Of a stretch of DNA of 64,000 bases, positions 45,510-61,219 are shown one piece after another. Each line of letters begins with the position of its first letter. The stretch's first letter is position 1. The translations under genes were made by a program, and so were the position numbers. The DNA comes from Sphingomonas sp. SORGH_AS_0950 (lineage in GTDB: Bacteria; Pseudomonadota; Alphaproteobacteria; Sphingomonadales; Sphingomonadaceae). The notes below the pieces were generated by a model, which was not told the DNA's origin, did no database searches, and saw only the letters and a list, made by a program, of their open reading frames with translations. The stretch is from the NCBI RefSeq assembly GCF_030818415.1, contig NZ_JAUTAE010000001.1:1970001-2034000 (forward strand), in the 5' to 3' direction.

Positions 45510-45566
45510 CGCCTCCTGTCCTCAAAATTAGGATCGAAGGCGTCCAGAAATCTAGGGGCTACTCAG

Positions 45567-47274
45567 TGCATATAGCCGGGGCCCGGCTCATCCGTCTTTT
45601 CCAGCCGGGCGCGGATCGTGTCCTTGGCAGCGTTGACCCCGATGCTGACCGGCTTGAACTTGGCCCGTTCGCGGTTGCTCGACTTGACCGTCGGCCAGAT
45701 GGGCTGGCGGGTGCCGCTGCGCTCGGAGGCGCCCTTGATCGCCCAGACCTTGCGGCCGAGGCGGGCCTGCGCGAACCGATAGACCTCGTTGGTGCGGTGG
45801 CCGCCGGAATCGATGCAGGCCGCCGACACATTGAACTCGCGACCATCGGCGCGGCGGAACGTGCGCAGCAACTGCTGGTCGACCCGGTCCCATAGCGCGT
45901 CGGTCGAGGTGTCGCCCTCAATGACGACATAGAGCAGCGACCAGCTTTCCTCGCCGCGCCCCCAGCCGACGAACTCCAGTTCGACCCGGTCATCCTGGGT
46001 GTCGCCGCCGACGGTGATGATCCCGACGCCGTCAGGCACCTCGCCCGGCCAGGTCTCGGCACGCGCCGATAGCAACTCGGCCAGCAGCACCTTGCCGCCT
46101 GCGCGCCGATGCGGCTTGCCGCGCTGGGTGTTGTCGAACTTCACCCGCTGGTCGGGGTCGTCCTTCCACAACAGCCATTTGCGGGCCATCTTCGGCGGCG
46201 CGTCGCGGTGCCAGGGGGAGAACTCCTTGCCCGCCGTGAAACTGGCATGCTCGTTGTCGACCGGCCACTTGCCGCATTTCGAGCAACGGGCGCGGTAGAC
46301 CGCCCAGCGCGGCCCCTGCCACCATTCCCAGGCAACGCCGACCGGATCGGCCGGGCGGACTTCCTGCGGTGCGCGCCATGCCTCCTCATACGCGGCCATG
46401 GGGTCCTGATACGTGTCGCAGCACCGAAAGGGCTTGGTCTGGTGCCAGCGCGCGGTCTGAAGCGCGGCGCGGCGCTGTGCCTCATTCCATGCACAGCCGC
46501 AGGATTCGCAATGGACCGCCGCCGTCTTATGGTGGTGGCCGACGACATGCCCCTCGGCGTCGTGCTCCTTGTCCCATTCGATGTGCTTGAAGAAGTCCAG
46601 GAACTGGCGGTGGCCGCAATGCGGGCATTCGACCGACGCCTGCCGCTGGTCGCCCTCCAGATAGCTATCGTGGATCGCGCTCTCGCCCTCGATCGTCGGA
46701 GAGCACGCCCGGATCGACTGCGCCCCGACGAACGTCCCCATGCGCTCTTCGGCCAGGCCGACCGCATCACCCTCACGGGTGGGGACATATTTGTCGATCT
46801 CGTCGCAGAATACGCGCTTGATCGGGCGCCGGGCCACGTTGTCGGGACTGCCAGCGCCCTCGATTGCGAGGAAGCCGCCGGGAAACGACTTGTAGCGGAT
46901 CGTCTCGTCGGAGTTGCGGGTCTTCCGGGTGCCGACCAGACGGCGCAGCACCGGCGTCGCCTTGATCAGCGGGGTGATCCGCTCCTTCGAGAACTGCTCC
47001 GCAGCATCCTCCTTGGGCTGCAACATGAGCATCGGCGACGGGTCGAGGTGGCGAAGAAGCCGAACGCATGCTCGATCAGCGCCGTCTTCATCAGCTGGGT
47101 GCAGACCATCACCGTGATGGTCGCGACACCCGGCTCGGTGATCGCCAGCATCGGCCCGCGCGCGATCTCGACATCGCCCGTGCGCCATTGCCCGATAGTC
47201 GAACCGGCCCCGGCGGCTTTCTTGCGGAAGCGGTCGGCCCAGTCGGGAACCGTGATGTACGGCGGCGGCGTCAT
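45567..47274 (-). pseudogene. Phage terminase large subunit (gpA-like), frameshifted and IS-truncated
   Basis: The N-terminal part (MTPPPYITVPDWADRFRKK from ATG 47274, to about 47060) and the main part (HLDPSPMLMLQPKEDAAEQF onward) are in different frames; one C appears to be missing at about 47057. Terminase landmarks include the ATPase region ending VMVCTQLMKTALIE, RRPIKRVFCDEIDKYV (Walker B-like), two zinc-like CxxC pairs (CPHCGH, CESCGC, CSKCGK) and the nuclease-domain Asp in ITVGGDTQDDR and ACIDSGGH. The end is cut after GPGYMH by the IS3 element. It once packaged phage DNA and is now dead. Confidence 0.85.
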
Positions 47275-47302
47275 GCCGCGCCGCCAGGAAAGTTCTAGGC
47301 GC

Positions 47303-47941
47303 TCAAGCTTCGCTTGCGTCGGAGAAATCGGCTTCGGGATCGCCGAGTTCGACGAGCTGCTGGTGGACATGCTCGGTCAGCGCCTCCAGCACCGGCTCGA
47401 CGGGCACGCCCAGCTTGGCCGCGATCAGCGGCGCGGTGCGCGCGGGCCAGTTCTGCCAGGCATCGCGAAACGCGCGCGCCTGTGCGAACAACACCTGCCC
47501 AGCCACCTCCAGGTCGACCACATCGCCCGCCTCTTTGCGAGCGGCGAGCAGGTTCTTGGCGGCGAGCCCGTTCTCCTTGATCTGCTCCGCCTGAGCGGTG
47601 CTGACGAACCGGCCATTGAGCACGGCATCGACGAAGTCGTCATCACCTAGGTCAATGGCCTCGACCGGCTGGGCTCCGGCCTTGCCGCGCTGCCGCCTGG
47701 GTGTTTCCACTTGGGCGGCCGGAGTGGAAACACCAGTGGAAACAGTTGCGGTGTTTCCACCCTGGGTTTCCACAGGTGTTTCCACCCGATTCCGCTTACG
47801 CCAGCCTGTCCCGGCAAGCGCCGGATCGATCAGGCCATCGGCCGTAACCGGCAGATTCCCGCGCTTTATGGCCTTGCTGACCAGGGTGTGAGAGCAGCCA
47901 TCCAATTTCGCGAACGCGCGGACCGATACGGGCTCAGCCAT
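47303..47941 (-). CDS. Phage terminase small subunit-like DNA-packaging protein
   Basis: The product has 212 residues from ATG 47941. The front (MAEPVSVRAFAKLDGCSHTLVSKAIKRGNLP) is a Nu1-type winged helix used to recognise packaging sites. A low-complexity linker (about residues 50-85) consists of repeats of Val-Glu/Ser-Thr-Pro/Gly encoded by repeated GTGTTTCCAC motifs. The C-terminal helical half (LEVAGQVLFAQARAFRDAWQNW) resembles small terminase oligomerisation regions. It lies just upstream of the large terminase. The frame is intact but the partner is broken. Confidence 0.75.
   Translation of the reverse strand: MAEPVSVRAFAKLDGCSHTLVSKAIKRGNLPVTADGLIDPALAGTGWRKRNRVETPVETQGGNTATVSTGVSTPAAQVETPRRQRGKAGAQPVEAIDLGDDDFVDAVLNGRFVSTAQAEQIKENGLAAKNLLAARKEAGDVVDLEVAGQVLFAQARAFRDAWQNWPARTAPLIAAKLGVPVEPVLEALTEHVHQQLVELGDPEADFSDASEA
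47701..47785. repeat. Cluster of GTGTTTCCAC motifs in both orientations
   Basis: Ten-base motif GTGTTTCCAC occurs at 47701-47710, 47751-47760 and 47776-47785, its inverse GTGGAAACAC at 47724-47733, and near copies at 47736-47745 and 47764-47773. One more inverse copy lies at 47943-47952, just ahead of the gene start. Spacing is irregular. The motifs encode the Val-Glu/Ser-Thr linker of the small terminase and might also serve as a DNA-binding site. Confidence 0.7.
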
Positions 47942-48142
47942 AGTGGAAACACCTTTCGGCATTCATAGCTGGGGGCGCCCCGCGCTGCCGCCCCCCGTAT
48001 CCAACCCGTCGGGGAAGGACCCAAAGGGCAGGATGGGTAGAACGCCGTGTCAAAGGATTTCCAGCCTTCCCAAAACCTTGCAGCGACACGATTGCCTGTC
48101 ACACTCGCCACGCTGGCATTCCCAGCGAATCGGGAGAGTACA

Positions 48143-48256
48143 ATGGCTATCAATAAGCGTGCCGTTCTCGCAGCCGTCACCGGCGCCATGTTACTTGGCG
48201 CGGCAAGCACTCCGGTATCTGCCCAGCGTTACTGCCAGCGTGAACTGGCGGACTGA
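48143..48256 (+). pseudogene. Small exported protein truncated by IS3 element 2
   Basis: ATG 48143 follows GGGAGAG. The 37 residues are a signal peptide (basic start, hydrophobic core, cleavage at PVSAQ) plus RYCQRELAD. The stop codon TGA at 48254-48256 is formed by the first bases of the insertion sequence, so the rest of the gene is lost. Function cannot be told. Confidence 0.5.
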
Positions 48257-48329
48257 GCTGGCCCCCATTTCGACCGGACGGATTCAAGCCTAAGAAGGAG
48301 GCTTGGGGCTATCCCCTAAGCATAGGCTT

Positions 48330-48707
48330 ATGTCCGTGTCCGAAATCATCACCGACGGCGGTCGTCGCCGTCACTGGAGCACGCCTGAGAAGCTGAGGAT
48401 CGTCGAGGAGACGCTCGATGGTCGCGAGAGCATATCGGTGGTGGCACGCCGCAACGGCGTGGCGCCGAACCTGCTGTACCGCTGGCGGCGGCTGATGCTG
48501 GAGGGCGGGAGCGTCGCGGTCGCCGGCGACGACGACGTGACCAGCAATCGCCAGGTCCGCGAGATGGAGACCCGCATCCGCGAACTGGAGCGCCAGCTCG
48601 GCCGCAAGACGCTGGAGGTCGAGATCCTGAAGGAGGCGCTGGAGCGCTCACGCCCAAAAAAAGCGAGCTTGCTCATGCACTCGCCGTTGCCGGAGACTAT
48701 CCGGTGA
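48330..48707 (+). CDS. IS3-family transposase orfA (element 2)
   Basis: The product has 125 residues in frame 0. An N-terminal helix-turn-helix (WSTPEKLRIVEETLDGRESISVVARR as landmark) precedes a coiled coil (VREMETRIRELERQLGRKTLEVEILKEALE). It overlaps orfB by four bases, and the A7 run at 48656-48662 would allow -1 slippage to give the fused OrfAB. Confidence 0.88.
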   Translation: MSVSEIITDGGRRRHWSTPEKLRIVEETLDGRESISVVARRNGVAPNLLYRWRRLMLEGGSVAVAGDDDVTSNRQVREMETRIRELERQLGRKTLEVEILKEALERSRPKKASLLMHSPLPETIR

Positions 48708-49537
48708 GCCTGGTCGCCAAGACGCTCGGGGTCGGGCGCTCGACGGTGTACGACCGCCTGACCGGCCGCACCCGGACGCGCGGGCCGTACGCCAAGGCCG
48801 ACGACGCGGACCTGCTGCCCCGCATACGCCAGATCGCCGCGCAGCGGCCCACCTACGGCTACCGCCGCATCGCGGCAGTCCTCAATCGACAGCAACGCGC
48901 CGAAGGACTGGCGCCGGTCAATCACAAGCGCGTCTATCGCATCATGGCCGCGGACCGCCTGCTGCTGGCGCGGCGCTACACCGAGCGGGCCGACTATGGC
49001 CATGACGGCGTCGTGGTGGCGATCCGCTCGAACCTGCGCTGGTGCTCGGACGGCTTCGAGTTCACCTGCTGGAACGGCGAGGTCGTGCGCGGCGCCTTCA
49101 TCATCGACGCCCATGACCGCGAGATCATCGCCTGGCGCGCGATCGCCAATGCGGGCATCAGCGGCTCGGACGTGCGCGACATCATGCTGGAAGCCGTGGA
49201 AACCCGCTTCGGCGGTATGCGCGCGCCCGTGCCGGTCGAGATGCTGTCCGATAACGGCTCGGCCTATACTGCCCGCGAAACACGCACCTTTGCCCGGCAG
49301 CTGGGCCTCAAACCCTGCTTCACGCCCGTTCGCAGCCCGCAGTCCAACGGCATCTCGGAGGCCTTCGTTCATACCCTCAAGCGCGATTACGTCCGCGTCT
49401 CGCCGCTGCCTGATGCTCCCACCGCGTTGACATCGCTTGCCGGATGGATCGAGGACTACAACGACAACCACCCCCATTCAGGGCTCAAAATGCGTTCACC
49501 GCGCGAACATCGCGCACTGGTTTCTGCAACCGCCTGA
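48704..49537 (+). CDS. IS3-family transposase orfB (element 2)
   Basis: The printed GTG start at 48704 gives 277 residues; through slippage the protein would begin further upstream (KSELAHALAVAGDYP region). Motifs: HTH_21-like TYGYRRIAAVLNR, first catalytic Asp in WCSDGFEF, second in LSDNGSAY and Glu in GISEAFVHTLKRDY. The C-terminus is GWIEDYNDNHPHSGLKMRSP, typical of the family. No lesions are visible. Confidence 0.9.
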   Translation: MSLVAKTLGVGRSTVYDRLTGRTRTRGPYAKADDADLLPRIRQIAAQRPTYGYRRIAAVLNRQQRAEGLAPVNHKRVYRIMAADRLLLARRYTERADYGHDGVVVAIRSNLRWCSDGFEFTCWNGEVVRGAFIIDAHDREIIAWRAIANAGISGSDVRDIMLEAVETRFGGMRAPVPVEMLSDNGSAYTARETRTFARQLGLKPCFTPVRSPQSNGISEAFVHTLKRDYVRVSPLPDAPTALTSLAGWIEDYNDNHPHSGLKMRSPREHRALVSATA

Positions 49538-49566
49538 ATCCGTCCGGTGAAACGGGGGCCAGATCA

Positions 49567-49956
49567 AAGCCGCATCGCGTACCGTTGTCGACCCGCTGCC
49601 TCGCTATCCTTGCCGAAGCTAAGACATTGAAGCGCGATACGGATGATTTGGTGTTCCCCGGCACGAAGGACACCAAGCCCCTGTCCGACATGACGCTTTC
49701 CAAGCTCATGAAGGATTTGAAGATTGCAGCCGTTCCACACGGCTTCCGATCTTCCTTCCGTGATTGGGCTGGGGAGACGACCGCGCATCCGCGCGAGGTC
49801 ATCGAGTTCGCCTTAGCCCACGTCATTAAGGACAAGGCGGAAGCTGCCTATGCGCGATCCGACCTCTTCGACAAACGCCGCGCCCTGATGAATGATTGGG
49901 CAGCTTTCATATCTACCGAAACAAGCGATAACCAAAACAGCAATAGCATACAGTAA
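49567..49956 (+). pseudogene. C-terminal remnant of a P4-type tyrosine integrase
   Basis: Directly after the IS border the sequence encodes KPHRVPLSTRCLAILAEAK and onward, the last third of a P4-like integrase. Catalytic residues still visible are the HGFRSSFRDW box (His, Arg), the second His in ALAHVIKDK and the nucleophile Tyr in AAYARSDLF. The N-terminal DNA-binding and first catalytic Arg regions are missing, replaced by IS3 element 2. Reading continues from the IS in frame, but no functional protein is expected. It probably inserted the island at tRNA-Ser. Confidence 0.85.
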
Positions 49957-50063
49957 GCCTAGATAGTAATTTTACAAAATCAAATTCCCATTTTTGCGCA
50001 ATATCATACTAACGGTTTTTTTGTTTAGCATTCCTGTTATTTATACGACTCCAAAAGAGGAGC

Positions 50064-50255
50064 ATGAGTATGCCGCCAAACGCGGTCATAAGAAGACAAG
50101 AACTTTTGAATATCATCGGCGTAAGCCGATCAACGCTGTATAACTGGATGGCTGATGGCCATTTCCCGCGCCCAATGATCTTGGGCAAGCGGGCCGTTGG
50201 ATGGAGCCGCAGCGTTGTCACTGAATGGCTATCAAGCCGCCCGACGTCTCATTGA
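50064..50255 (+). CDS. AlpA-family helix-turn-helix regulator
   Basis: The product has 63 residues; ATG 50064 follows GAGGAG. The sequence VIRRQELLNIIGVSRSTLYNWMADGHFPRPMILGKRAVGW (landmark, residues 8-47) is a typical AlpA/excisionase winged helix-turn-helix, ending with VTEWLSSRP. Such proteins control excision or integrase expression in P4-like islands, in agreement with the integrase remnant 108 bp upstream. Confidence 0.85.
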   Translation: MSMPPNAVIRRQELLNIIGVSRSTLYNWMADGHFPRPMILGKRAVGWSRSVVTEWLSSRPTSH

Positions 50256-50282
50256 ATTCAATCAAGGACCCAAAATTAATAG

Positions 50283-50528
50283 ATGAAAATATCTGGAATA
50301 TGTAATCTTCGCAACGAAAATATGTATAACGTAGTAGTTAAAGAGTCGCTGATAATCGTGAATATGCTCAACGATATTATTTCGAGTATTACTTCTTGTT
50401 TAGATAGCAAGGCCTTGGATTGGCAGGAACGCGACCGTTTGGATCGCGCAATTAAGAATATAAAAATGACACAGCTCGTATTAGCGGCAAGGATAGCGCG
50501 TCATACGAAAACTCAACAGGTCGCGTAG
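50283..50528 (+). CDS. Small hypothetical protein
   Basis: The product has 81 residues from ATG 50283; the only ribosome-site candidate (AAGGA) is 14 bases ahead, and a second ATG at 50322 is an alternative. The sequence is helical, with a central hydrophobic part (SLIIVNMLNDIISSI) and a basic C-terminus (RAIKNIKMTQLVLAARIARH). AT-rich codon use like the rest of this island segment. No family is recognised. Confidence 0.45.
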   Translation: MKISGICNLRNENMYNVVVKESLIIVNMLNDIISSITSCLDSKALDWQERDRLDRAIKNIKMTQLVLAARIARHTKTQQVA

Positions 50529-51007
50529 CAAAGGCATTATGAATATACCTGCGTAAACAATAAAAATTTGGACGAGAGGCACAATAGAGCTAGCCGTCCA
50601 AATCCGATAAAAGCATGGGATAATACCCTATCTTATTAGAGCATCCGCAATATATCAATGACGCAATACGCAATGTGAGTCTTGGGAAACGACGCAATTT
50701 CCCAAACAATGGAGCCTTTACAACCATCATCTTATATCAGTTCAGCCCTTACCGTCCATCCCAATTTGATTGTGTGATGTTTAATTTGTTTATTAATTTA
50801 CTATTCTTTTGACAAAACCACTTTATAAATCAGCCATATTGCATAATATACCTAAATGTTTTTTAACTTTATTGCACTTTCACGGTTCTAAACTAGTAAC
50901 CTTAGTATTAAATTCGACACTAACTCCGCTACGATCTGTTTTCTTGGCGTCGAATATGTGTAGATGAATGCGCTCCCGCAGCGATCCTGCTGCTTACGGA
51001 GCCTCAA
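50529..51007. other. AT-rich intergenic region upstream of the polymerase-like gene
   Basis: This 479-base stretch is very AT-rich at 50760-50900 and contains a TTGACA box at 50809-50814 without a well-spaced -10 partner. There is no gene. Its position ahead of a replication-like protein would suit an origin or regulatory leader, but I see no iteron repeats. Confidence 0.35.
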
Positions 51008-52360
51008 ATGACCGATACTGAACTTGAATTACCACTACCTAACGCCGAACACCCTAGCCCCACAGCGCTAGACCTCCGCGACCAACCTACCGCCCCCATG
51101 CACCTTACGTCCCGCCTCCGAAGTAAGGCGGCGATGGATGCAACCGTGGCGCTGGCTAGCCAAATCATCGAGCTTCGGGGCAATCGCAAAAAGCCAAGCG
51201 ACCAGTATATGCTTGCCCTTGGGGCAGCGGTTGCCGAGCTTGTACGGGCTGCGTCCCACACCCCTGTTCGCCCCTGCTTCCGCCCCATGGATGCCAACAC
51301 CTTTACCCCTAAGGACCCTGACGCATCCAGGGCCGATGCGGTTGGCTATCAATCCTTTAAGCGTGTCATGGACGACATGCAGCGGAACGGCTTTGTCCGC
51401 ATCGATGCAGGAAAACGTGGCTACAACGATATCCTGGGCATCATCACCCGGATTTACGTGACGCCTAAGCTAACCGACCACCTAGCAGTCCACGGGATCA
51501 CGCCCGCCAACCGTCGCTCTCATTTTACGTACCGCCGCGCAGCCGAGGACATTCCGCCCATCCAGCTTCGGGCTACCTCGAAACGCAAGGGGCGCAACCG
51601 TGAGCGCGGCGCGCTGCTTCCGGTCGATTGGACAAATCCAGCCGTACAGGACCACGGCCGCCAAATCCGGGAAATCAACCGCCATTACGCTAAACAAGTC
51701 ATCATCGGGCCAGATGGTGAAGAGCTTGATATTGCCCTATATCGCGCTTTCAACCTTGGCGATCAACCCTGCCATGATTTCAGAAAGGGCGGTCGCGCAC
51801 ATGCCATCTTCCAAAACTTTAATCGCGAAGAGCGGGCAAAGATCAGGATCAATGGACAGGAAACCGTAGAAGTGGATATTAGCGCGTGCTTTCTGACAAT
51901 ATTGCACTTCCTACTTGGCAAACAGTTTTCTAACAATGTAGATTTGTACGATTTTTCGCCTTATCCACGCGAAATCGTCAAATCGTGGGTGAACCTGACG
52001 ATAGGAAATTCCGGTTATCACAAGTCATGGCCAAAGGAGACTGTCGATTTCCTTGATAAGAAGAAAGGCATACCCAATGTTCGGGCACGATTTCCAATCG
52101 CTCTAGTCAGAGAGAATGCTTTGAATAATCTTCCCATCGTTAAAGAATGGGTTGATAGCGCCCATAGCTGGGCTGACCTTTTTTACATTGAAAGTACCAT
52201 CGTCATAGATGCGGTTCATTGCTTGGCCTATGACCATGGAATTACCGCCCTACCCGTCCATGACGCCATCAGGGTTCCTGTTGCTAATGCGGCGGTCGCT
52301 AAAGCGGTATTAAGTGATATGTTTTTCAAAAATACCAACATTCGGCCTATAATTAAGTAA
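51008..52360 (+). CDS. Polymerase-like protein with family-A palm motifs (possible replication protein)
   Basis: The product has 450 residues; ATG 51008 follows CGGAG. The N-terminal 200 residues contain a likely helical DNA-binding region (AVGYQSFKRVMDDMQRNGFVR looks winged-helix-like). Three segments recall family-A DNA polymerases: motif A-like VEVDISACFLTILH (Asp290), an O-helix-like REIVKSWVNLTIGN (Arg321, Lys325) and motif C-like LPVHDAIRVP (His418, Asp419). There is no 3'-5' exonuclease domain. Related island and plasmid proteins with this layout exist, but I do not know a proven function. It could replicate the island or make short patches of DNA. Confidence 0.55.
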   Translation: MTDTELELPLPNAEHPSPTALDLRDQPTAPMHLTSRLRSKAAMDATVALASQIIELRGNRKKPSDQYMLALGAAVAELVRAASHTPVRPCFRPMDANTFTPKDPDASRADAVGYQSFKRVMDDMQRNGFVRIDAGKRGYNDILGIITRIYVTPKLTDHLAVHGITPANRRSHFTYRRAAEDIPPIQLRATSKRKGRNRERGALLPVDWTNPAVQDHGRQIREINRHYAKQVIIGPDGEELDIALYRAFNLGDQPCHDFRKGGRAHAIFQNFNREERAKIRINGQETVEVDISACFLTILHFLLGKQFSNNVDLYDFSPYPREIVKSWVNLTIGNSGYHKSWPKETVDFLDKKKGIPNVRARFPIALVRENALNNLPIVKEWVDSAHSWADLFYIESTIVIDAVHCLAYDHGITALPVHDAIRVPVANAAVAKAVLSDMFFKNTNIRPIIK

Positions 52361-52682
52361 TTTCTCTCTATAATATATCTGTCTCTCTCTTCTTTCCTCA
52401 TTCCAATAGACCTTAGCTGGATCAAGGAATCAGAAGGACAGTGAGGATACAGATAATTTTACCTTAAAAATCCGAATGGACAGGAAAGCAGGGTCGAAAT
52501 CTGCCCTAGGACTTCGACCTTTGCTTTACGAATATGCCTCAACACAGATGAACAAGGGTAGGTTAGACCATTATTTGATTTCAAGGCCGCACAGATGGTT
52601 TATTGATGATTGACTACACGGGTAGCTGAAGCGGTAGAATCGCGCCCCACAGCCCTCTAATGGCAATTTAAAGGGTGTTGAG
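52361..52682. other. Intergenic region after the polymerase-like gene
   Basis: The region is AT-rich and starts with a pyrimidine-rich CTCTCT stretch (52364-52398). A tRNA-like look near 52618-52660 did not fold. No gene or clear regulatory motif was found. Confidence 0.35.
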
Positions 52683-52910
52683 TTACAAGACGCTCGATAA
52701 TTGCGATGGGAACGGGACAGCCAGCCCCAGGGCATCCTCAACAGGCGCGGTTAGCCAGCGCTCATGGTCATCATCATGAAGGATGATGGGCATGGCCTTG
52801 GGGTGGGTGGCTCCAACCACATGGGTAGCGGGATCGCCCTCATAGCCGGTGGTCAGGAATGCATAGGCAGCATTGTCGCCACACACCAATATGAGCCAAG
52901 ACCGTCAGAG
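52683..52910 (-). pseudogene. SRAP/HMCES (YedK)-family C-terminal fragment
   Basis: About 75 residues remain: AYAFLTTGYEGDPATHVV, then HPKAMPIILHDDDHERWL and TAPVEDALGLAVPFPSQL. This is the C-terminal part of the SOS-response-associated peptidase family, including the conserved His of HPKAMPVIL. The N-terminal catalytic Cys2 half is absent; a stop lies just upstream. SRAP proteins shield abasic sites in single-stranded DNA. Here only a remnant survives between two other genes. Confidence 0.7.
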
Positions 52911-52958
52911 GCCATAATGAGCTTCGGGCAGCAGCAAACAATCAAGTACCCCAAAAGC

Positions 52959-53723
52959 CTAACGCACATTTTGGGAAATTTTTGTAGGCGCCGGAGAAAT
53001 TAATGGAGATGCTTCACAAGCATTTGCTCCATTCCGTTCAACATTCTTCCGCCTTGTGACATGCCTTTCACCGGCTCTGAATGGTACGCTACCAGTGGTT
53101 GGCGCTGATTGTGCAGTTCGTTCAATATAGCAAACCACTTCGCTATTTATAGTCTGGGCTTTCGACCCCAAATCATCATTTTTTGGCACATACGATCGCC
53201 AAAGATATATCATTACAAATAGCATTATTACTATACAAAATATAACGATGTACTTTGATACACGATACGTCCACTCCCCTCTCTTAACCCTCTTCCATTC
53301 ATGCTTTAGAAGCGCCCTAGATGCTTGAATGTAATTCTCCTCTGCCGCCTTGATATTACTAGGGGTGAGATTTGCGTTAATAGAGGCCAAGCTTTCGAAT
53401 GATTCCATACTTTTAAGAAGTTCTATAGCAGTTTTTTCTTCGCTATTAACTCGTAATACAATACCATGACTAGCCTCGTTAAGAGCCTTATAACTATCTA
53501 TGATAGCTGCCGTATTCGGAGAGCCCTGCTGGGGGCGGGCGCGAATAGCATCGGAAATAGCATTTATCTGTACAAGATACGCAACCATGCACTTACGCAG
53601 ATCATCGATCCAGGCCTGCCTAAATTCAGAAATCTTTTGCTCTTTACTGATCACCAGGCCAAGTATCGATACGAGTCCCGCGACAATCGCGGCCCCTACC
53701 GCCCCGATACTTATATCGTTCAT
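52959..53723 (-). CDS. Hypothetical two-helix membrane protein
   Basis: The product has 254 residues from ATG 53723. A membrane helix at 6-27 (VGAAIVAGLVSILGLVIS) is followed by about 130 residues of soluble helices (FRQAWIDDLRKCMVAYLVQ...), then a second helix near 160-180 (YIVIFCIVIMLFVMIYLW) and a polar tail. This arrangement, with the bulk of the protein between two membrane anchors, is often seen in phage or defence membrane proteins, but there is no family match. It is divergent from the gene at 53823 with 99 bp between starts. Confidence 0.55.
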   Translation of the reverse strand: MNDISIGAVGAAIVAGLVSILGLVISKEQKISEFRQAWIDDLRKCMVAYLVQINAISDAIRARPQQGSPNTAAIIDSYKALNEASHGIVLRVNSEEKTAIELLKSMESFESLASINANLTPSNIKAAEENYIQASRALLKHEWKRVKRGEWTYRVSKYIVIFCIVIMLFVMIYLWRSYVPKNDDLGSKAQTINSEVVCYIERTAQSAPTTGSVPFRAGERHVTRRKNVERNGANACEASPLISPAPTKISQNVR

Positions 53724-53822
53724 CAATTTTCTCGTTTTCTATCTTGCGCAAATATCGCCGAGAATGCGAGGTTTGACGCCGCAACGCAAGAAGGTCACTG
53801 GCCTTTTACAACGGGGAGCGAG

Positions 53823-54824
53823 ATGGTTGAACGCATAACTTTCCATTTTGAAGGCGAGAAGGCCGACGCCCACCGTATGAATTTTTACGAAGCCGCACGC
53901 TTTCAATACGCTGCCGCGCGACTCCTTGTTAAGATCGCACAATTCAGAGCAGACGGAAAATTTTCCGAAAGTATAAGTAATAAGAGTAATCATGATATTG
54001 AATTAATCGCCCAAAGGTCCGGCTCTTTTAATTACAATGTCGAGGAATCCGGTCTAGTTGGCGATACATTTCTGAATGTACGACTTTCCGATCTCGTCGC
54101 ATATGTAGCGGAACGCGTAATAGAGAAATTGGACGAATCAACGATTTCTCATATCCCTTTAGATTCTTTAGGTTATGTTGATGAAGATGACGATGAGGAG
54201 TACGTCGCTCCGGTCTTTTCAACCGAATTGGAGCCTAATCAGATTGACAATATGGCAGATGCCGTACTGGCTGGGGATAATTTGACGGCGGCACTTCCGC
54301 GTGAGACTTCAAGTATTGTAAAACGCCGCGTCGCAGAAATCTATCGTGAACGACGCTTGACCGCTACGGCTCGGTCGATTTCTCAAATTTCGGAATCTCA
54401 AAGCCAAAAATTAGTCGCGATGGCTGCTCCCCTTATAGTTGAAATGGGAACTGCGCTACGAAAGAGCGCAACGACGCTTGAGGTTACTACACAAAAAAGA
54501 GGCCCAGTTAAATCGGTCCTTTTCCTTGACCGAAAAATGGCTCGCGATATCGAGACGGCAATTGTTGACCGCCAAATCACCCCAATACTTGGGGACGTCT
54601 CCCAGTTTAATAAGGAAAATGGCTGGGGTAAATTACGCATAGAAAATGGAGCAAAAACTGTAAGCTTTAGTATACCGTCCGACGTTCTTCCGTCAATTCG
54701 TCAAACTTTAATTGACAGCATGAAGAGGGATTTGGTTTACTTAAAGACATACTTTGTTCGCGATCGCGCAGAAAAGGTCAAACGCTTGGTAGTAGTCGGC
54801 ATTCTCCCAACGCCTCTTCCTTGA
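53823..54824 (+). CDS. Hypothetical protein, two-domain, DUF7946-like opening
   Basis: The product has 333 residues; ATG 53823 follows GGGGAG. The opening ITFHFEGEKADAHRMNFYEAARFQYAAARLLVK (landmark, residues 4-36) resembles an uncharacterised domain found in phage- and defence-related proteins. An acidic stretch (YVDEDDDEEYV, about 115-125) separates it from a C-terminal domain (about 220-333) that looks like a small beta-barrel (GDVSQFNKENGWGKLRIENG). Codon use is AT-rich like other island cargo. Function is unknown. Confidence 0.55.
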   Translation: MVERITFHFEGEKADAHRMNFYEAARFQYAAARLLVKIAQFRADGKFSESISNKSNHDIELIAQRSGSFNYNVEESGLVGDTFLNVRLSDLVAYVAERVIEKLDESTISHIPLDSLGYVDEDDDEEYVAPVFSTELEPNQIDNMADAVLAGDNLTAALPRETSSIVKRRVAEIYRERRLTATARSISQISESQSQKLVAMAAPLIVEMGTALRKSATTLEVTTQKRGPVKSVLFLDRKMARDIETAIVDRQITPILGDVSQFNKENGWGKLRIENGAKTVSFSIPSDVLPSIRQTLIDSMKRDLVYLKTYFVRDRAEKVKRLVVVGILPTPLP

Positions 54825-54924
54825 GCATGCCTCGATTTCCTAGTAAGTTTTTCTGACGGCGAGTCAAAGTGATCGCAACCTTCCGCTACCAGTATGATTA
54901 CACGGTCATAGCAAAGGAGCGACC

Positions 54925-55467
54925 ATGGCGGACGAAGCCGTAAACGTGAATGCCGCAGAGCTGGCAACGGACCTGACTATAGCTTGGTTGGGCAACCCCA
55001 ACACCCGCACGCCTGCCAATGAGGTTCCGGCTTTCCTGGGCAAGATGCACGAAACGGTTTCAGCGCTGCTCGGCGGCGGCAGTGGTCCAGCCACGGAACA
55101 AGCTGCCCCCACCGAATACACCCCGGCTGTATCGGTTCGAAAGTCGCTGGCGTCCAAAGATCACATTATTTCGATGATCGACGGCAAGCCCTACAAGACG
55201 CTACGCCGTCACCTTGCTACCAATGGCCTGACCCCGGAGGAATATCGGGATCGCTATGGCCTTAAGGCTGATTATCCGATGGTATCCGAAACCTATTCGG
55301 AAAGCCGTCGTGCCATGGCGAAGAAGATTGGTCTCGGTCGTAAGCCCGGTCAAAGCCCGAAGGCAGAGCAAACTAATAAGGTGGGTGCTAAGCCCGCTCG
55401 TAAAGGCAAGTCGATTTCGGACGCTAAGGCTGCTGCCCAGGCGCATTTGGGTATATCTGGCGAATAA
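54925..55467 (+). CDS. MucR/Ros-type transcriptional regulator
   Basis: The product has 180 residues; ATG 54925 follows AAAGGAG. The MucR core is SMIDGKPYKTLRRHLATNGLTPEEYRDRYGLKADYPMV (landmark, about 85-122), preceded by a longer N-terminal region than in Ros (AELATDLTIAWLGNPNT is the usual start). The zinc-finger cysteines are missing (HIISMIDG instead of a CLE-type stretch), while the His of RRHL remains. The C-terminal tail is basic (KPGQSPKAEQTNKVGAKPARKG). It may silence horizontally acquired genes, as MucR proteins do, or act only on the island. Confidence 0.85.
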   Translation: MADEAVNVNAAELATDLTIAWLGNPNTRTPANEVPAFLGKMHETVSALLGGGSGPATEQAAPTEYTPAVSVRKSLASKDHIISMIDGKPYKTLRRHLATNGLTPEEYRDRYGLKADYPMVSETYSESRRAMAKKIGLGRKPGQSPKAEQTNKVGAKPARKGKSISDAKAAAQAHLGISGE

Positions 55468-55474
55468 CGAAAAT

Positions 55475-55495
55475 GGGGCGGGAGTGACCCGCCCC
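55475..55495. terminator. Hairpin between convergent genes
   Basis: GGGGCGGG (55475-55482) and CCCGCCCC (55488-55495) form an 8-bp perfect stem with a five-base loop, eight bases after the MucR stop and 13 bases before the stop of the convergent gene. It probably ends transcription from both sides; short A- and T-rich runs flank it. Confidence 0.7.
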
Positions 55496-55507
55496 TATCA
55501 TTCGAAG

Positions 55508-55906
55508 TCAACGCATATGATAGCGTCGATCCTGCCGATCATCGACGCCCTGTACGCCAATGGTATCCACCTCGCTATGATCGGCACGCGGGTCAGGCTG
55601 CCCATCTTCGCTAGCTTCGGCATCGATACGGCTAACTTCGTCACGATAAGCTTGCCATACGGACCGCCGATCCGAACCCGACTGGCCACCTTGCCCCGTG
55701 CGGACTACATCGAAAGCGTGAAGCACTACACCGGACAGAAAAAGCGCAGCACCGCATATAACCATCGTCATTTGCTGCTGTTGTAAGGCAAGGTTGACGA
55801 CCCTGCCCCCGAACATTCCTCCCGATATGGAGGTATCAAATACAAATGTGGCATAGGCGACCAGCAACGCCCCTCCAAGCCACATGATAACACCCAAGGC
55901 ACGCAT
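55508..55906 (-). CDS. Small two-helix membrane protein
   Basis: The product has 132 residues from ATG 55906. Helix 1 is at 5-22 (GVIMWLGGALLVAYATFVF) and helix 2 at 47-65 (MVICGAALFLSGVVLHAFDV); the rest is a charged cytoplasmic tail (RTGQGGQSGSDRRS..., many Asp, Arg, Gln). No family is recognised. It lies 22 bp downstream of the 55929-56267 gene's stop on the same strand, so the two are probably co-transcribed. Confidence 0.55.
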   Translation of the reverse strand: MRALGVIMWLGGALLVAYATFVFDTSISGGMFGGRVVNLALQQQQMTMVICGAALFLSGVVLHAFDVVRTGQGGQSGSDRRSVWQAYRDEVSRIDAEASEDGQPDPRADHSEVDTIGVQGVDDRQDRRYHMR

Positions 55907-55928
55907 AGCCCGTCCCCTAAAAACGTTA

Positions 55929-56267
55929 TCAGCGCATTGCGTAGTCAGACACCATCTTTGCCTTTGTGTCCTTCACATTGGCATCGAACCGTTCGATATG
56001 ATAATCCTGATTGGGATTCCTCTCCATGCTAAGCATGTACAGGGCTCGGAGGGTTTTAATATTGTCAACGCAAGCGCCATCAACCGCAGCCTTATAGCTA
56101 TCTACAGACAGTTTCTTAGCCTTTGCCTTCATGTCGAAATCGGAAAGACACTGATTGGCACGGTCGAAAAACTGGTTAAGGCTAGGATTGTCGCCAGAAT
56201 TAGTGATTTGTGCCGTGCCAGGCACTGACAGGCACGCAGCTACGATAGCCACGACGGACTTCCGCAT
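55929..56267 (-). CDS. Small secreted hypothetical protein
   Basis: The product has 112 residues. ATG 56267 begins a signal peptide (MRKSVVAIVAACLSVPGTAQ), so export to the periplasm is likely. The mature part is helical with two cysteines (NQCLSDFD, GACVDNIK) that may form a disulphide. No family is recognised. It leads a likely two-gene unit with the membrane protein encoded downstream. Confidence 0.55.
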   Translation of the reverse strand: MRKSVVAIVAACLSVPGTAQITNSGDNPSLNQFFDRANQCLSDFDMKAKAKKLSVDSYKAAVDGACVDNIKTLRALYMLSMERNPNQDYHIERFDANVKDTKAKMVSDYAMR

Positions 56268-56552
56268 ATGTTTATCCCACGTTCGACCGCTCCGGCCCGA
56301 CAGTCGGGACGGTTGATCGCGCGGGAACACAGGGAACCGCGCCCTGCGTATTCCCTTTCGGTGTTATATTCGGCAGGCCGCCCGACCTGTCTGGTCGAGT
56401 GCCTGTGTTCACCGCCGATTGCGGGCCAATCCTCACGATCAAGATCGGACTGACACATGCTTCGTATGCGCAGTCGCTACGGGTGTCTAGCAGCTACTAT
56501 GCCGTCTGCTGAATAGCGGTACGGGAGACACCGCCCCCTCCCCCGCCACGCT

Positions 56553-57209
56553 TCAATCTTCCTCGGCAGCAACCAGCGCATCTATCAGCTGCCCCCTCAA
56601 ACGGGTTCGACCTGCCACGCTTCGGCAATAGGCATCATCGGCAAAGGCCCGATAAACGCTGGCACGACCGATACCCAACCGCTTTGCAATTTCGGTAGCG
56701 CCAATACCCTCGGCACGGAGGGAGTTGATTGCAGCGATATCAACCGAAGGTTTGCGCCCCTTGTAGACGCCAGCGGCTTTAGCCTTCGCGATACCTTCGG
56801 CTTGGCGTTCCTTACGGATTGCCGTTTCGAATTGTGCGAATACGCCAAGCATTTGAAGAAAGGCAACGCCAGCAGGGGTGGAGGTATCGATTGGCTGTTC
56901 CGTTGCCCGGAGGAACGCCCCACGCTCTTTCAGAACGGCAACGATCTTCTCCAAATCCGCTACCGATCTAGCCAAGCGGTCAATCCGGGTGACCATGAGC
57001 GTATCGCCAGCGCGGATGAACGACAGAACCGTGTCTAACTCGACACGCCCCTCTACGGTCGTGCCCGTCCGCTTCTCCGAACGAATGATCGAACACCCAG
57101 CGGCACGCAACGCTGCCTCTTGGATTTCACAATCCTGATCGTCGGTCGAAACACGGGCGTAACCGATGATGGTCGACATAGTGGAATGTCCCAATTGCCT
57201 CTTAGACAT
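56553..57209 (-). CDS. Serine recombinase / resolvase
   Basis: The product has 218 residues if ATG 57209 (AGGATTGGA ahead) is used; ATG 57179 is closer to the conserved start. The catalytic domain reads IIGYARVSTDDQDCEIQ (nucleophile Ser), TRIDRLARSVADLE and FAQFETAIRKERQAEGI, and the C-terminal helix-turn-helix is GATEIAKRLGIGRASVYRAF. It is of the small resolvase/invertase type (Tn3-like) with a short tail. A likely res or crossover region is found directly upstream. It may resolve dimers of the island or a former transposon. Confidence 0.9.
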   Translation of the reverse strand: MSKRQLGHSTMSTIIGYARVSTDDQDCEIQEAALRAAGCSIIRSEKRTGTTVEGRVELDTVLSFIRAGDTLMVTRIDRLARSVADLEKIVAVLKERGAFLRATEQPIDTSTPAGVAFLQMLGVFAQFETAIRKERQAEGIAKAKAAGVYKGRKPSVDIAAINSLRAEGIGATEIAKRLGIGRASVYRAFADDAYCRSVAGRTRLRGQLIDALVAAEED

Positions 57210-57302
57210 TCCAATCCTGATGTCTCAACATACCGGAGTCAACCCTATTGAGACGATTCGTTTGTCTCGTTCGATTGTCCCGTTAGGGTTTACTCTATTG
57301 AG
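57200..57302. promoter_or_regulatory. Possible res site upstream of the serine recombinase
   Basis: The region carries an inverted repeat TGTCTCAA (57221-57228) with TTGAGAC (57248-57254), a second inverted pair GAGAC (57250-57254) and GTCTC (57264-57268), and a direct repeat CTATTGAG at 57245-57252 and 57295-57302. This arrangement of short repeats next to a resolvase gene is typical of res subsites, but the 12-bp half-site pattern is not proven. Confidence 0.4.
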
Positions 57303-57349
57303 CACCTGCAAAAGCCTATTGCCTAAATAGCTAGCGGCTGGACCAGCAT

Positions 57350-59065
57350 CTACAGCGAATAGCCATAGTCCATTTCGAGAGCGTCGAAGATCATGGTTTC
57401 GTCTATATCAAAGGCGGTTCGAAGGACCGCCGGATGTCGAGCGTCACCAAGCCCGTGCAAACACGCTATTTCTTGCAATAACCCTCTCGGACTACCCATA
57501 AGTTCTTTATCTACCGGACCTCGCGCAAATCGCAGTATTGGATGCTCCACGTTTGCTACTTTCGCTTCTACAGTCACCCCATTCAATAAGAATACCGCCA
57601 GTCCCTGCGTTTCCTTGTCGCCTTTGATGATGTTTGAAAACTTAGCAGTCTTCAAAGAGGGTCGGAATATTTGCGCTACCGCTTGGGATACGTTAGACCC
57701 CATAGCCACGATATTTGTGCAGTCTCCTGTTATCAGAGCTTTCATTATTTCCTGATGGTAAGTGAGCTCTGGCCATTCCTGTAGCTTTGGAATAAGTAAT
57801 TCAAGCATTTGCTCCTGCCCAAGTAACAACAGGCGGCCAAGGCGGTATCTTAGTTGTGAAACCGCCCTCTTACGCTCATAGCCATCAGCAGGACAAGGCT
57901 GATTTAAAGCTTCGTTAGCCTGACTGTAGAGGCGCTTTGCCAAGCCCTCCACATCACGTAAGATTGTTGAAGTGGATACGGCATTCGTCTTAAAGCGTAG
58001 CCAATTCCATAAACCTAATCGTCTAATCTTCTGATAAGAAGACGCTTCTTTGATCGCTTCCGCATAGTCAGGAATAGGGAGCCGCACACCTAAAACAAAT
58101 AACGCGTCTTCAAGGTCACCCATTTTACCATTATTAAATATAAGAAACTTTTTAATGTCACCGACAAGCCTCATCCAGGCTACGGAATGTTCTTCCGGAG
58201 AGAAGTCGTTTGAGCTTTTGATCCAATCACCGGTTGTGAGCCGCAACGTCTTCGGCGACTCCATGCCGTGTATATCAAAGCCGCGTTTCGCTAGTTCTTC
58301 ACGTAAAACAACGACCGCTTTGGCTACATGCTCTGACTTGCCAACAACAGTAATGTCGTCAACATATCTAAAATATTCGACTTCGAACTCCTTCGCGAGT
58401 TCGTCTACTTCACGTAGTACCAAATTTGCTACAAAGTGGCTAAACATTGGACCGGTCAGGATAGATTTGCTTTCCGATCTTACTTCATAGTTAGCAATTA
58501 GCTTTAGACCTAAATCAGTCCACAACTCGTCAAGTTTAGCCTGTTCGCAGAATAGGAGCCACGCAGCTCGTGCGCTTTCAGGTCTGATTGACGGATAAAA
58601 CTTTTTTATGTCTATGTATAGTACTTCACCATCGGGAATGTCTCTACAGACCTTTGCTATTTGAGATTGCCGTTCCCGTAGACCCTTCATGTAAGGATCG
58701 AAGGCTCCTGCGCTGCTTTCTACGGTATCAAGTCTATAGCTGAACACGCGACTCGAAAGAGCGGCATTGTAGTAGTCAGCGCATTTACGTAATAACGCTA
58801 CCTCTGCCAGAGCCTCCGGGATCGACGGAATGAAAAGTTCGCGGTCTTCAAAGCCGCCGTCTTCCGTAACTTGTTTGAAGTGGTAGGAGCGAAGGTAAGC
58901 ACCCTCCTTCTTTGCGAACACAGCTTGCACTGCGCTACCTTCCGCCCAATCATCAGACCTAGCCACCTCTGCTTCAAGGCAGTACCTTAAGCCAAGATAC
59001 GCAAATATATCTCGAGAACGATACTGATTTATGCATGCACTGGCGATACTACCTACTTTGTTCAT
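57350..59065 (-). CDS. Reverse transcriptase, unassigned-group / Abi-like (probable defence)
   Basis: The product has 571 residues. RT motifs: an N-terminal region with RKCADYYNAALSSRVFSYRLD, motif A YIDIKKFYPSI (Asp152), motif B GPMFSHFVANL (205-215), motif C YFRYVDDITVVGK with catalytic YVDD at 234-237, and a downstream FDIHGMESPKT segment (motif D/E). The last 260 residues are helical, repeat-like and leucine-rich (YRLGRLLLLGQEQMLELLIPKLQEW), as in anti-phage UG/Abi RTs. There is no maturase X or HNH domain, so it is not a group II intron protein. The ATG overlaps the stop of the upstream gene (TAATG), so the pair is translated together. Confidence 0.85.
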   Translation of the reverse strand: MNKVGSIASACINQYRSRDIFAYLGLRYCLEAEVARSDDWAEGSAVQAVFAKKEGAYLRSYHFKQVTEDGGFEDRELFIPSIPEALAEVALLRKCADYYNAALSSRVFSYRLDTVESSAGAFDPYMKGLRERQSQIAKVCRDIPDGEVLYIDIKKFYPSIRPESARAAWLLFCEQAKLDELWTDLGLKLIANYEVRSESKSILTGPMFSHFVANLVLREVDELAKEFEVEYFRYVDDITVVGKSEHVAKAVVVLREELAKRGFDIHGMESPKTLRLTTGDWIKSSNDFSPEEHSVAWMRLVGDIKKFLIFNNGKMGDLEDALFVLGVRLPIPDYAEAIKEASSYQKIRRLGLWNWLRFKTNAVSTSTILRDVEGLAKRLYSQANEALNQPCPADGYERKRAVSQLRYRLGRLLLLGQEQMLELLIPKLQEWPELTYHQEIMKALITGDCTNIVAMGSNVSQAVAQIFRPSLKTAKFSNIIKGDKETQGLAVFLLNGVTVEAKVANVEHPILRFARGPVDKELMGSPRGLLQEIACLHGLGDARHPAVLRTAFDIDETMIFDALEMDYGYSL

Positions 59066-59982
59066 TATCCCGCCTTAATCAGATCGATCGGCATAACGCA
59101 CAGACGAACATTAGCTGTGTTTGATGGCTGCGCCGGCGTAGAGAACTTGTAGTTGCACTCTTCGTTGCCCGATGCGGCGACTTGCGGCGTTGCAAAGCTA
59201 GTAAGCTTCGCAAGACTTTTCATTATAAAGGGGAAAAGCCCTTTTTTGGCGGTGTTCATATTCGGCTCGATCCACACAGCCGCGTTCAGTTTTCCCGAAG
59301 AGTACTTAAGTAATTCGGCAAGCTGCGGATACGCAGCTTTTTTCTTGCCGTCTTTTTCTAAAAAGCCGTTAAAGTTCGATATCAGCAGAAGCGTCTGCTG
59401 CGTTGCAGCTTTCGACAAGACAATCTTTTCGACAAGAGCAGAGTTGCTCAATTCAGACAATACGTCCCATGACGACACAAAGCAGTCCAAGGTAATAGCT
59501 TGCTCTTCGAGCGCAGGTCGAATCCTTTCAATCAGATCAACCGCGTAGGCACGGGCAGGAACGGATATCTCACCCCATATCAGATGAATGTGCAACGGAA
59601 GGCGAGGCAGCCGGTGCTCCTCCCTAAGTGTCGCAATACTGCATATGATTGCCAAAGCTGCCGCACCCGCGCCAGCTGGAACATCGATGAAGGTAAGCGT
59701 TCCCGCGGTGAGAAACCTTTTCAGGGTTTGCGCGGTAGTTTTAACTTCCCCCGTCGGGTCCAATAACGCTAGTTGCGCCCTTGCAGCCGAACCATCGAAG
59801 GCGTGAGCGTAATGCGCATCAGTTGCCTCCTTTGTTAGGCCGCCAACCGGTGCTGGATCAGGTCGAGGTTCCTTCGATAAGCCTTCAAGACCATGCGCGT
59901 TTAAAGAAGCTAAGTACGCAGCGGCTAGCGACGGGGCGATCAAGAGTCGCGTACCATCGTGCAGGGAAGCCGGTAATTTCAT
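59065..59982 (-). CDS. Methyltransferase-like protein, partner of the reverse transcriptase
   Basis: The product has 305 residues; ATG 59982 follows GGAGG. Residues 97-112 (TFIDVPAGAGAAALAI) match motif I of Rossmann-fold SAM-dependent methyltransferases; an acidic residue after the next strand (LIWGEISVPARAY, Glu138) and the SSWDVL and LLLISNFNGF segments fit the later motifs. The first 95 residues (ASLHDGTRLLIAPSLAAAYLASL...) are a separate region. The glycine motif is not canonical, so a fold without methyl transfer is possible. The stop overlaps the RT start by one base. It is the promoter-proximal gene of a two-gene operon next to tRNA-Ser. Confidence 0.6.
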   Translation of the reverse strand: MKLPASLHDGTRLLIAPSLAAAYLASLNAHGLEGLSKEPRPDPAPVGGLTKEATDAHYAHAFDGSAARAQLALLDPTGEVKTTAQTLKRFLTAGTLTFIDVPAGAGAAALAIICSIATLREEHRLPRLPLHIHLIWGEISVPARAYAVDLIERIRPALEEQAITLDCFVSSWDVLSELSNSALVEKIVLSKAATQQTLLLISNFNGFLEKDGKKKAAYPQLAELLKYSSGKLNAAVWIEPNMNTAKKGLFPFIMKSLAKLTSFATPQVAASGNEECNYKFSTPAQPSNTANVRLCVMPIDLIKAG

Positions 59983-60162
59983 GAACCTCCACGCGATTAT
60001 TGCAACAAAAAGCTGATTACGTCGCGATAGAAGCACGCTCTGCCATCGGGGGCAACCTTCGCAACCTCTCACGCCATCGGCTTAAGAGTGTTGTACTTTA
60101 TGTTGGTCTGCGCGCCCTAAACCCGTTTTTCTTGTTTCTTTATAGGGGGTTAGTGTTAGCAT

Positions 60163-60177
60163 TGGCGGAGCGGGAGG
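60163..60177 (+). repeat. Island right attachment repeat (inside tRNA-Ser)
   Basis: TGGCGGAGCGGGAGG, identical to 44241-44255. It includes the encoded CCA, the discriminator base and the 3' acceptor strand of tRNA-Ser, so integration restores the tRNA. Confidence 0.7.
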
Positions 60178-60253
60178 GATTCGAACCCTCGATACGGTTT
60201 TGCCGTATACTCACTTTCCAGGCGAGCGCCTTCGACCACTCGGCCACCGCTCC
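60163..60253 (-). tRNA. tRNA-Ser (GGA)
   Basis: On the minus strand the sequence starts GGAGCGGTGGCCGAGTGG and ends CCGCTCCGCCA: a 7-bp acceptor stem, the D arm, the anticodon loop CTGGAAAG with anticodon GGA, a long variable arm (TATACGGCAAAACCGTATA type) and the T arm with GGTTCGAATCC. The CCA is encoded. The long variable arm identifies a class II serine tRNA. The 3' end is the integration site of the genomic island to its left. Confidence 0.95.
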
Positions 60254-60349
60254 GCATGAGTTCATGCCTGGAACACGCGCCCCTAATGCGCTTCGCGGCG
60301 GCGCGCAAGCGATTGCGTGGGGCGGCGGGCTCGTGCAGTCTTTGCGGCG

Positions 60350-61219
60350 ATGACGATCGCACTCTTTCTGGCCGCGCTGCTGGCGCAGGCTTCGCCCTCT
60401 CCCGCTCCCCCCGCGACGCAGGCCAGCGATCCGCTGCCCGGTGACTGGATCGCCGTGCCCGATGACGAGGTGCTGATCTTCACCCTGTCGAACGGGCGAA
60501 CGGTGACGGTGCGGCTCGCCGCCGGACAGGCGCCGGTCCATGTCGCCAATATCCGCGCGCTGGCGCGGGCGCATTGGTGGGATGCGGGGACCAGCGTCTA
60601 TCGCGTGCAGGAAAACTATGTCGCCCAATGGGGCGATGCGACCGAGAAGAAGCCGCTGCCCCCCGGCATCGTCGCCAATCCCCCGGCCGAATATATCCGC
60701 GCGGGCAACAGCGCGGTCGCGCGGCTGAGCCGGCCCGATCCCTATGCCGCCTGGGCGGGCTATAGCCGCGATGGCTGGCCGCTGGCGGGGGATGCGGCGT
60801 CGGAGTGGGTTCCGCATTGCTATGGCATGGTCGGCGTCGCGCGCGATCTGGCGCCCAGCACCGGGACCGGGGCCGAGCTCTACACGATCATCGGCCACTC
60901 GCCGCGAGGGCTGGACCGCAATATCGCGGTGGCCGGGCGGGTGATCGACGGGATGGAGGCGCTGTCCACCCTGCCGCGCGGGACGGGCGATCTGGGCTTC
61001 TACAAGGACGAGGCCCAGCGCCTGCCGATCGTGTCGGCCCGGCTGGCGAGCGAACTGCCCGCCGCCCAGCGGCCGCATTACCAGTATCGCGAGACGGCTT
61101 CGCCTCGCTTTGCCGCCTGGATCAAGGGGCGGGAGAATCGGAAGAACGACTTCTTCACCGTGCCCGCGGGGGGCGTGGATATCTGCGCGGCCTTGCCGCC
61201 GGTTCGGAAGGCACCTTGA
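60350..61219 (+). CDS. Exported cyclophilin-type peptidyl-prolyl isomerase
   Basis: The product has 289 residues from ATG 60350; a GTG at 60317 is also possible and neither has a good ribosome site. A signal peptide (MTIALFLAALLAQASP) leads. The cyclophilin core is TVTVRLAAGQAPVHVANIRALARAHWWDAG, YRVQENYVAQWGDA and, after a long insert, YTIIGHSPRGLDRNIAVAGRVIDGME (landmarks only). Several cyclophilin catalytic positions differ, and the enzyme has a long insertion between strands. It probably folds or chaperones periplasmic proteins. Confidence 0.85.
   Translation: MTIALFLAALLAQASPSPAPPATQASDPLPGDWIAVPDDEVLIFTLSNGRTVTVRLAAGQAPVHVANIRALARAHWWDAGTSVYRVQENYVAQWGDATEKKPLPPGIVANPPAEYIRAGNSAVARLSRPDPYAAWAGYSRDGWPLAGDAASEWVPHCYGMVGVARDLAPSTGTGAELYTIIGHSPRGLDRNIAVAGRVIDGMEALSTLPRGTGDLGFYKDEAQRLPIVSARLASELPAAQRPHYQYRETASPRFAAWIKGRENRKNDFFTVPAGGVDICAALPPVRKAP

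Follow-up and report, generated by a model that had tools for sequence, protein, structure and literature searches.

The 64,000-nucleotide stretch of the Sphingomonas sp. SORGH_AS_0950 genome analyzed here (contig NZ_JAUTAE010000001.1, positions 1,970,001 to 2,034,000; hereafter the window) carries a two-gene operon in which a protein with a class I S-adenosylmethionine (SAM)-methyltransferase fold, referred to below as the partner, is followed by a reverse transcriptase (RT) of class UG36. In 35 of 35 relatives of the RT, the gene immediately upstream, on the same strand, encodes the partner. RT and partner form a unit that very probably serves to fight viruses. We assign a probability of roughly 0.45 to a more specific reading, in which the operon is a two-component anti-phage RT module whose partner serves as a SAM-holding control subunit and whose RT synthesizes DNA without a template. 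The UG36 group was reportedly defined and named in a 2022 survey in Nucleic Acids Research, which may already list the pairing; the name was known, and this analysis adds the fold of the partner, the constancy of the pairing, and the fusion of the two parts in a sister class, UG35. The features of the operon are as follows, with conservation given as rows of an 88-row RT alignment and an 86-row partner alignment.

59065-59982, minus strand: partner gene, first gene of the operon, 305 amino acids from an ATG; class I SAM-methyltransferase fold with a METTL17/Rsm22-like shape
57350-59065, minus strand: RT gene, 571 amino acids, class RT_UG36; RT domain at about residues 1-290, helical C-terminal domain at about residues 291-571
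59063-59067, minus strand: TAATG stop/start overlap coupling the partner to the RT, one shared base
59986-59990, minus strand: GGAGG, Shine-Dalgarno-like, 3 bases 5' of the partner ATG (a short spacing)
58586-58612, minus strand: RT motif A, residues 152-160 (D152 and Y157, 88/88 each)
58436-58453, minus strand: RT motif B, residues 205-210, GPMFSH, general form G-P-x-x-S-H (H210, 88/88)
58355-58366, minus strand: RT catalytic YVDD, residues 234-237 (88/88), preceded by an invariant R233 (R233-Y-V-D-D237)
59662-59685, minus strand: partner SAM motif I, residues 100-107, D-x-P-x-G-x-G-A (D100 83/86, G104 84/86, G106 85/86)
59359-59376, minus strand: partner motif IV position, residues 203-208, N-F-[NS]-G-F-L (N203 79/86, F204 81/86)
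59263-59268, minus strand: partner E239-P240, after strand 5 (86/86)

Both open reading frames (ORFs) are real and intact, and the one-base overlap is present in the sequence. A GTG 30 codons upstream of the ATG offers an alternative start for the partner; the 305-residue form is favoured because GGAGG stands 3 bases ahead of its ATG.

The RT matched the PADLOC RT_UG36 model (PDLC03775) over residues 7-570 of 571 at an E value of 6.8e-167, the best among RT models, followed by RT_UG35 at 2.2e-14. Chance or non-coding ORFs are ruled out by this match together with the database relatives of both proteins (322 for the RT and 160 for the partner at E<=0.001, from about 8000 scored candidates each), and a new RT class is rejected on the same match. 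RT_UG36 was also the best model for all 8 of the more distant relatives, among the 35, that were scanned individually. Pfam RVT_1 scored 28.9 bits, slightly below its cut-off of 29.6. D152, D236 and D237 were present in every row of the RT alignment, and motif A includes Y157, which we take to be the steric-gate position. An AlphaFold2 model has about 280 mostly helical C-terminal residues. The original prediction of a UG/Abi-type RT with intact YVDD, motif A and motif B residues and a helical C-terminal part was therefore borne out, the motif residues being invariant. A retron was considered and rejected, as the retron St85 model, whose cut-off is 235 bits, scored 39.6 and Rfam found no retron RNA in 56000-60800.

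The pairing with the partner was surveyed in a species-genome scan, from which 80 of 135 matched RT loci were kept: L002-L036, which are near-full-length (22-41% identity by tblastn), and L037-L081, which hold other RTs or partial matches. By their record titles, the 35 near-full-length loci come from Proteobacteria, Campylobacterota, Acidobacteriota, Cyanobacteria, Bacteroidota, Elusimicrobia, Verrucomicrobia and others. The junction is a 4-base overlap in 23 of the 35 and a 1-base overlap in four, with overlaps of 8 bases in three and of 11 bases in one; the other junctions are overlaps of 232 and 43 bases (with mechanically called starts), one 3-base gap, and L006, where both lie in a single frame. 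The partner of L008 is frame-broken and that of L012 is cut by a contig end. After the 35 relatives and the window, the Aliarcobacter plasmid pAFAEC supplies a 37th case; its pair is annotated as "hypothetical protein" and "RNA-directed DNA polymerase". A profile of the partner was specific to this setting: of 45 other-RT loci it matched only the UG35 fusion L043, and it matched none of the 19 control stretches and, among the matches listed, none of the 35 RT loci in viral contigs. Partner and RT also co-diverge, with a distance correlation given below. To our knowledge, Abi RTs act without a partner of the UG36 kind. Rare adjacency of the two genes in homologues is excluded. The suggestion that the pair is a new defence type stands as far as the constant pairing goes and falls as regards a new RT class; that class already has a name, the partner accompanies it throughout the 35 loci, and no experimental study of UG36 was found among the titles listed in literature searches that did not cover the naming survey. 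Among the titles listed, nothing relevant joined defence RTs with a methyltransferase.

The unit is sporadic in distribution, as genome counts show. The partner occurs in 1 of 61 genomes (the window's own and 60 relatives) and in 2 of 398 genomes of the phylum, with an RT adjoining it in the second; the RT query matched 8 of 397 genomes of the family, in 2 cases over the full length. Neither extra locus is independent: the second phylum partner is identical to that of L032 and the second full-length family RT to that of L005. Viral contigs gave at least 35 RT matches, all partial and at most 34% identical, and no relative of the partner in a scan by a single motif pattern. The phage collection had no match for either protein, and the plasmid collection gave one RT match, next to which the partner was missed by tblastn and found by the profile. 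The alignments A3 and A4 include 67 and 64 of the 119 database proteins listed for each (the best 120 were listed per protein), with fragments and fusions omitted, as were many others to keep the alignments small.

The sister class UG35 connects the two proteins in another way. All 86 partner rows matched the RT_UG35 model (PDLC03774), the best at 1.6e-12, and the window partner matched it at positions 75-207 of 938 (E 2.2e-6), N-terminal to the RT part. Two of the other-RT loci, L039 and L043, match UG35 over their whole length (E 2.1e-183 and 5.2e-296), and both carry a methyltransferase-type motif I ahead of the RT (DVGCGAGA in L043). UG35 is a natural methyltransferase-RT fusion in one chain of about 1000 amino acids, and the fusion supports physical cooperation of the UG36 RT and its partner. 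The methyltransferase-type part is common to both classes, whereas UG35 is a single chain and its RT a separate class. A separate partner of this fold that is constant across bacterial phyla, and joined to the RT in a sister class, suggests a candidate way for immune DNA synthesis to be controlled.

What the partner might do can be approached through its fold. No Pfam or NCBIfam family was assigned to it; the best 25 of 34 Pfam families in its tally were weak matches only, some of them methyltransferase domains, and Rsm22's own Pfam family was absent among those 25, which is not proof of absence. The AlphaFold2 model (pLDDT 96) and fold comparison upheld the Rossmann/methyltransferase-like core of the original prediction, with a class I SAM-methyltransferase fold whose closest shapes, at 9-12% identity, are the mitoribosome assembly proteins METTL17/Rsm22. 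Besides SAM motif I, an acidic residue after strand 2 is conserved (E in 71 of the 86 rows, D in 15). In DNA amino-methyltransferases, motif IV reads [DNS]PP[YF]; the partner has NF[NS]GF there, which makes a DNA-modification enzyme of a restriction-modification (RM) system unlikely. PADLOC gave RT_UG35 as the sole match for the window partner. Across the 86 rows, five families besides UG35 were matched, each by a single row, and no RM model was among them. One partner, of about 490 amino acids (L032:6287-7762; L126 is the identical sequence), has an N-terminal extension of about 170 residues, to which no Pfam family matched.

The conserved SAM motif I and acidic residue would suit an active methyltransferase that acts on the RT-made DNA or on the RT itself, as a self mark or a toxicity toggle, so that a phage disturbing methylation triggers the system. 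Two retrons are indeed triggered by a phage N6-adenine methyltransferase, which its authors credit to methylation of the RT-DNA (PMC12548924). The motif IV sequence and the lack, in the 86-row alignment, of a conserved cysteine of the C5-enzyme kind at that position speak against such an activity, as does the finding that none of the nine top fold matches is a DNA methyltransferase, and we consider it unlikely. More generally, the partner may methylate some substrate, but binding and gating are the likelier role.

RNA methyltransferases are frequent among the further Foldseek matches. In PMC11046306 and PMC8171064, METTL17 is described as working at the small subunit of the ribosome, and a tRNA substrate is proposed for yeast Rsm22. 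Together with the constant pairing, this ribosome and tRNA link would fit a toxic effector (for example, one modifying ribosomal or transfer RNA) that the RT and its DNA restrain as a sensor, as in retrons, which likewise combine an RT with an effector protein. The window pair, however, has neither a retron-class RT nor, by Rfam in 56000-60800, a retron RNA, and 7 of the 35 loci leave little room for one (see below). The partner also departs from METTL17/Rsm22 despite the common fold. That family has a Cys/His metal motif (PMC8171064, in part), whereas no such motif (zinc or Fe-S) was found in the partner core sheet across the 86 rows: the columns in which cysteine or histidine was commonest, in more than 30% of rows, were H30, H57, C97, C103 and C114, and only H57 exceeded 71%. 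The Rsm22 OB-like C-terminal domain is missing as well, the chain ending with the last core strand at residues 289-300 of 305. An effector of this kind is quite unlikely.

The surroundings of the pair bear on the question of a template. Apart from the tRNA, the Rfam scan of 56000-60800 gave nothing above gathering score. In seven of the 35 loci (L007, L010, L016, L021, L025, L027 and L033), fewer than 80 bases are free on both sides of the pair, and L031 and L033, in which about 2346 of about 2690 operon bases are identical, show no flank similarity at E 0.01. Because of these three results, an obligate flanking template RNA for UG36 is unlikely. They also weigh against a Class 2-like DRT templated by a non-coding RNA (ncRNA), a fairly improbable reading in which the RNA may be embedded in the genes themselves, encoded at a distance or present in the flanks of some loci only; such templating would have precedents in DRT2, DRT3 and DRT9, which are ncRNA-using defence RTs (PMC13213688, in the part cited), and could draw on the upstream DNA common to L013, L014 and L015, described below. 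About 170 bases 5' of the partner gene are conserved between the betaproteobacterial L013 and L015 and could be a promoter, a spacer or a local cis RNA. L006 and L025 share 49 flanking bases.

Comparison with known systems favours synthesis without a template. Among UG/Abi RTs, Class 1 is marked by a helical-repeat (aRep) C-terminal domain and by protein-primed, template-free synthesis, and Class 2 by a conserved cis-encoded ncRNA. As outlined in PMC13174585 and PMC12632851, the Class 1 UG RTs examined to date synthesize DNA without a template, and Class 2 enzymes use ncRNA. DRT4 is summarized as making template-free random single-stranded DNA that becomes toxic on accumulation once a phage protein shields it from exonucleases, and the same phage protein activates DRT6 (PMC13213688). 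AbiK, AbiA and Abi-P2, which share with UG36 an RT and a helical domain, are likewise described as making random DNA without a template (PMC11077055). In fold comparison of the whole RT model, the frame within which the helical C-terminal domain was compared, DRT4 (UG15) and DRT6 were the VIA-align rows whose alignment exceeded 300 residues, spanning the RT and helical domains at 12% identity. The UG36 RT looks most like the template-free Class 1 and Abi RTs because of its shape, its catalytic residues and the finding of no flanking RNA. DRT4 and DRT6 are presented as single-gene systems in the cited text (PMC13213688), whereas UG36 has a constant second gene; the defence RTs described in the cited parts of PMC13213688 and PMC13174585 either act on their own or rely on an ncRNA, a second RT or a fused polymerase domain.

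In the proposed two-component module, RT and partner would act together as one complex, which we infer because the related UG35 holds both in one chain. During phage infection the RT would make DNA without a cis-encoded RNA template, like DRT4 and AbiK, and this DNA, or its synthesis, would halt phage growth. The partner would be the control subunit, holding SAM and probably RNA, that licenses or restrains DNA synthesis when infection alters translation, RNA or SAM. A bolder version, in which UG36 and the fused UG35 form a methyltransferase-coupled branch of defence RTs whose METTL17-like, SAM-binding subunit recognizes the ribosome or RNA, senses infection and switches on template-free synthesis, is rather doubtful; under it, no earlier defence RT would have had a SAM-fold protein of its own as its gate.

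Several points weigh against the proposed module. A shared fold shows no function. The top rows for the RT model by Z are RT domains from other lineages (G2L4 RT, 18.5), with DRT4 and DRT6 at ranks 40 and 44. Partner and RT distances are correlated (Mantel r 0.944 for 33 pairs, 0 of 9999 permutations as high), partly through common descent; this set comprised 32 loci and the window, with L006, L008 and L012 dropped (fused in frame, frame-broken and cut by a contig end, respectively), the L032 partner trimmed to its core and the L011 RT start set by hand. The ORFs that bound the free flanks of the seven tight loci were called mechanically, and upstream DNA is common to L013, L014 and L015 (169 bases at 76% between L013 and L015; 95 at 74% and 66 at 76%). 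One database protein, P0012 (923 amino acids), is a UG36-like RT fused behind a PF03432 domain, presumably a relaxase, without the partner inside that ORF. Finally, neighbouring ORFs within 4.5 kb of the pair (128 of 206 scanned) matched 247 PADLOC families at 1e-10 and control ORFs (124 of 165, from 19 arbitrary stretches) matched 69, a crude comparison in that one protein can match many PADLOC models and the control stretches come from relatives of the window organism, not from the same hosts.

The neighbours of the pair are rich in restriction and DISARM-type genes. Among the best 25 of those 247 neighbour families, DISARM DrmMI and type IIG models matched as many as 5 proteins and type I specificity models matched 3, while none of the best 25 control families occurred in more than 2; control ORFs also matched some methyltransferase and housekeeping-type models. 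Pfam on ten hand-picked neighbours gave HsdR-, HsdM- and HsdS-type, MmeI/Eco57I-type and UvrD-type proteins, along with a chemotaxis receptor in L015, an ankyrin protein in L034 and two proteins that Pfam did not clearly name. The pAFAEC pair neighbours restriction S subunit, DUF4297 and VPA1262 genes. These varied defence genes, and a largest shared neighbour family that reaches only 4 of 35 loci, make it very unlikely that the pair is a selfish or housekeeping RT-methyltransferase unit of mobile elements, serving, for example, element replication or RNA maintenance, even though the window copy adjoins integrase-remnant, terminase, transposase and resolvase genes and one relative sits on a plasmid.

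By the same family count, no third conserved gene was seen. Three cyanobacterial loci (L016:9758-10435, L018:9758-10465 and L021:9742-10419) have a related gene 12-27 bases 3' of the RT, which in L016 is an RNase_T exonuclease by Pfam and is a possible third component acting on the DNA product. In L006:6432-9401, from a Methylococcales metagenome-assembled genome, partner and RT share one frame of 990 codons from stop to stop, reflecting either fusion in nature or a frameshift introduced by sequencing close to the end of the partner. P0104 combines a truncated RT with another protein.

The placement of the operon in a tRNA-adjacent island, which had also been predicted, agrees with a tRNA-Ser beside it and a low-GC, phage-like stretch with mobile genes. 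The features of this region are listed here.

60163-60253, minus strand: tRNA-Ser (GGA), adjoining the operon
44241-44255, plus strand: 15-base exact direct repeat of the tRNA-Ser 3' end, other copy at 60163-60177
56553-57209, minus strand: serine recombinase (resolvase), next to the operon; an island mobility gene outside the two-gene unit
45563-47188: phage terminase gpA, within the candidate island
44311-44985 and 48303-49537: transposase genes, within the candidate island
49444-49956: tyrosine-integrase remnant, within the candidate island
51008-52360 and 53466-54824: unnamed ORFs of 450 and 452 amino acids, no Pfam match

The repeat at 44241-44255 is a possible far attachment site, giving a putative island of about 15.9 kb (44241-60177), bounded by the tRNA-Ser repeats, with the UG36 pair at its tRNA end; a ROS/MucR regulator also lies between the repeats. 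The GC content between the repeats is 0.547, against 0.677 and 0.670 outside; 44241-49540 alone is at 0.653, and a clear drop begins only at about 49.5 kb. The sRNA-Xcc1 family is linked to integron attC sites, and a sub-threshold Rfam match to it at 56307-56387 on the minus strand (39 bits against a gathering score of 53, E 0.0002) may be an attC-like remnant.

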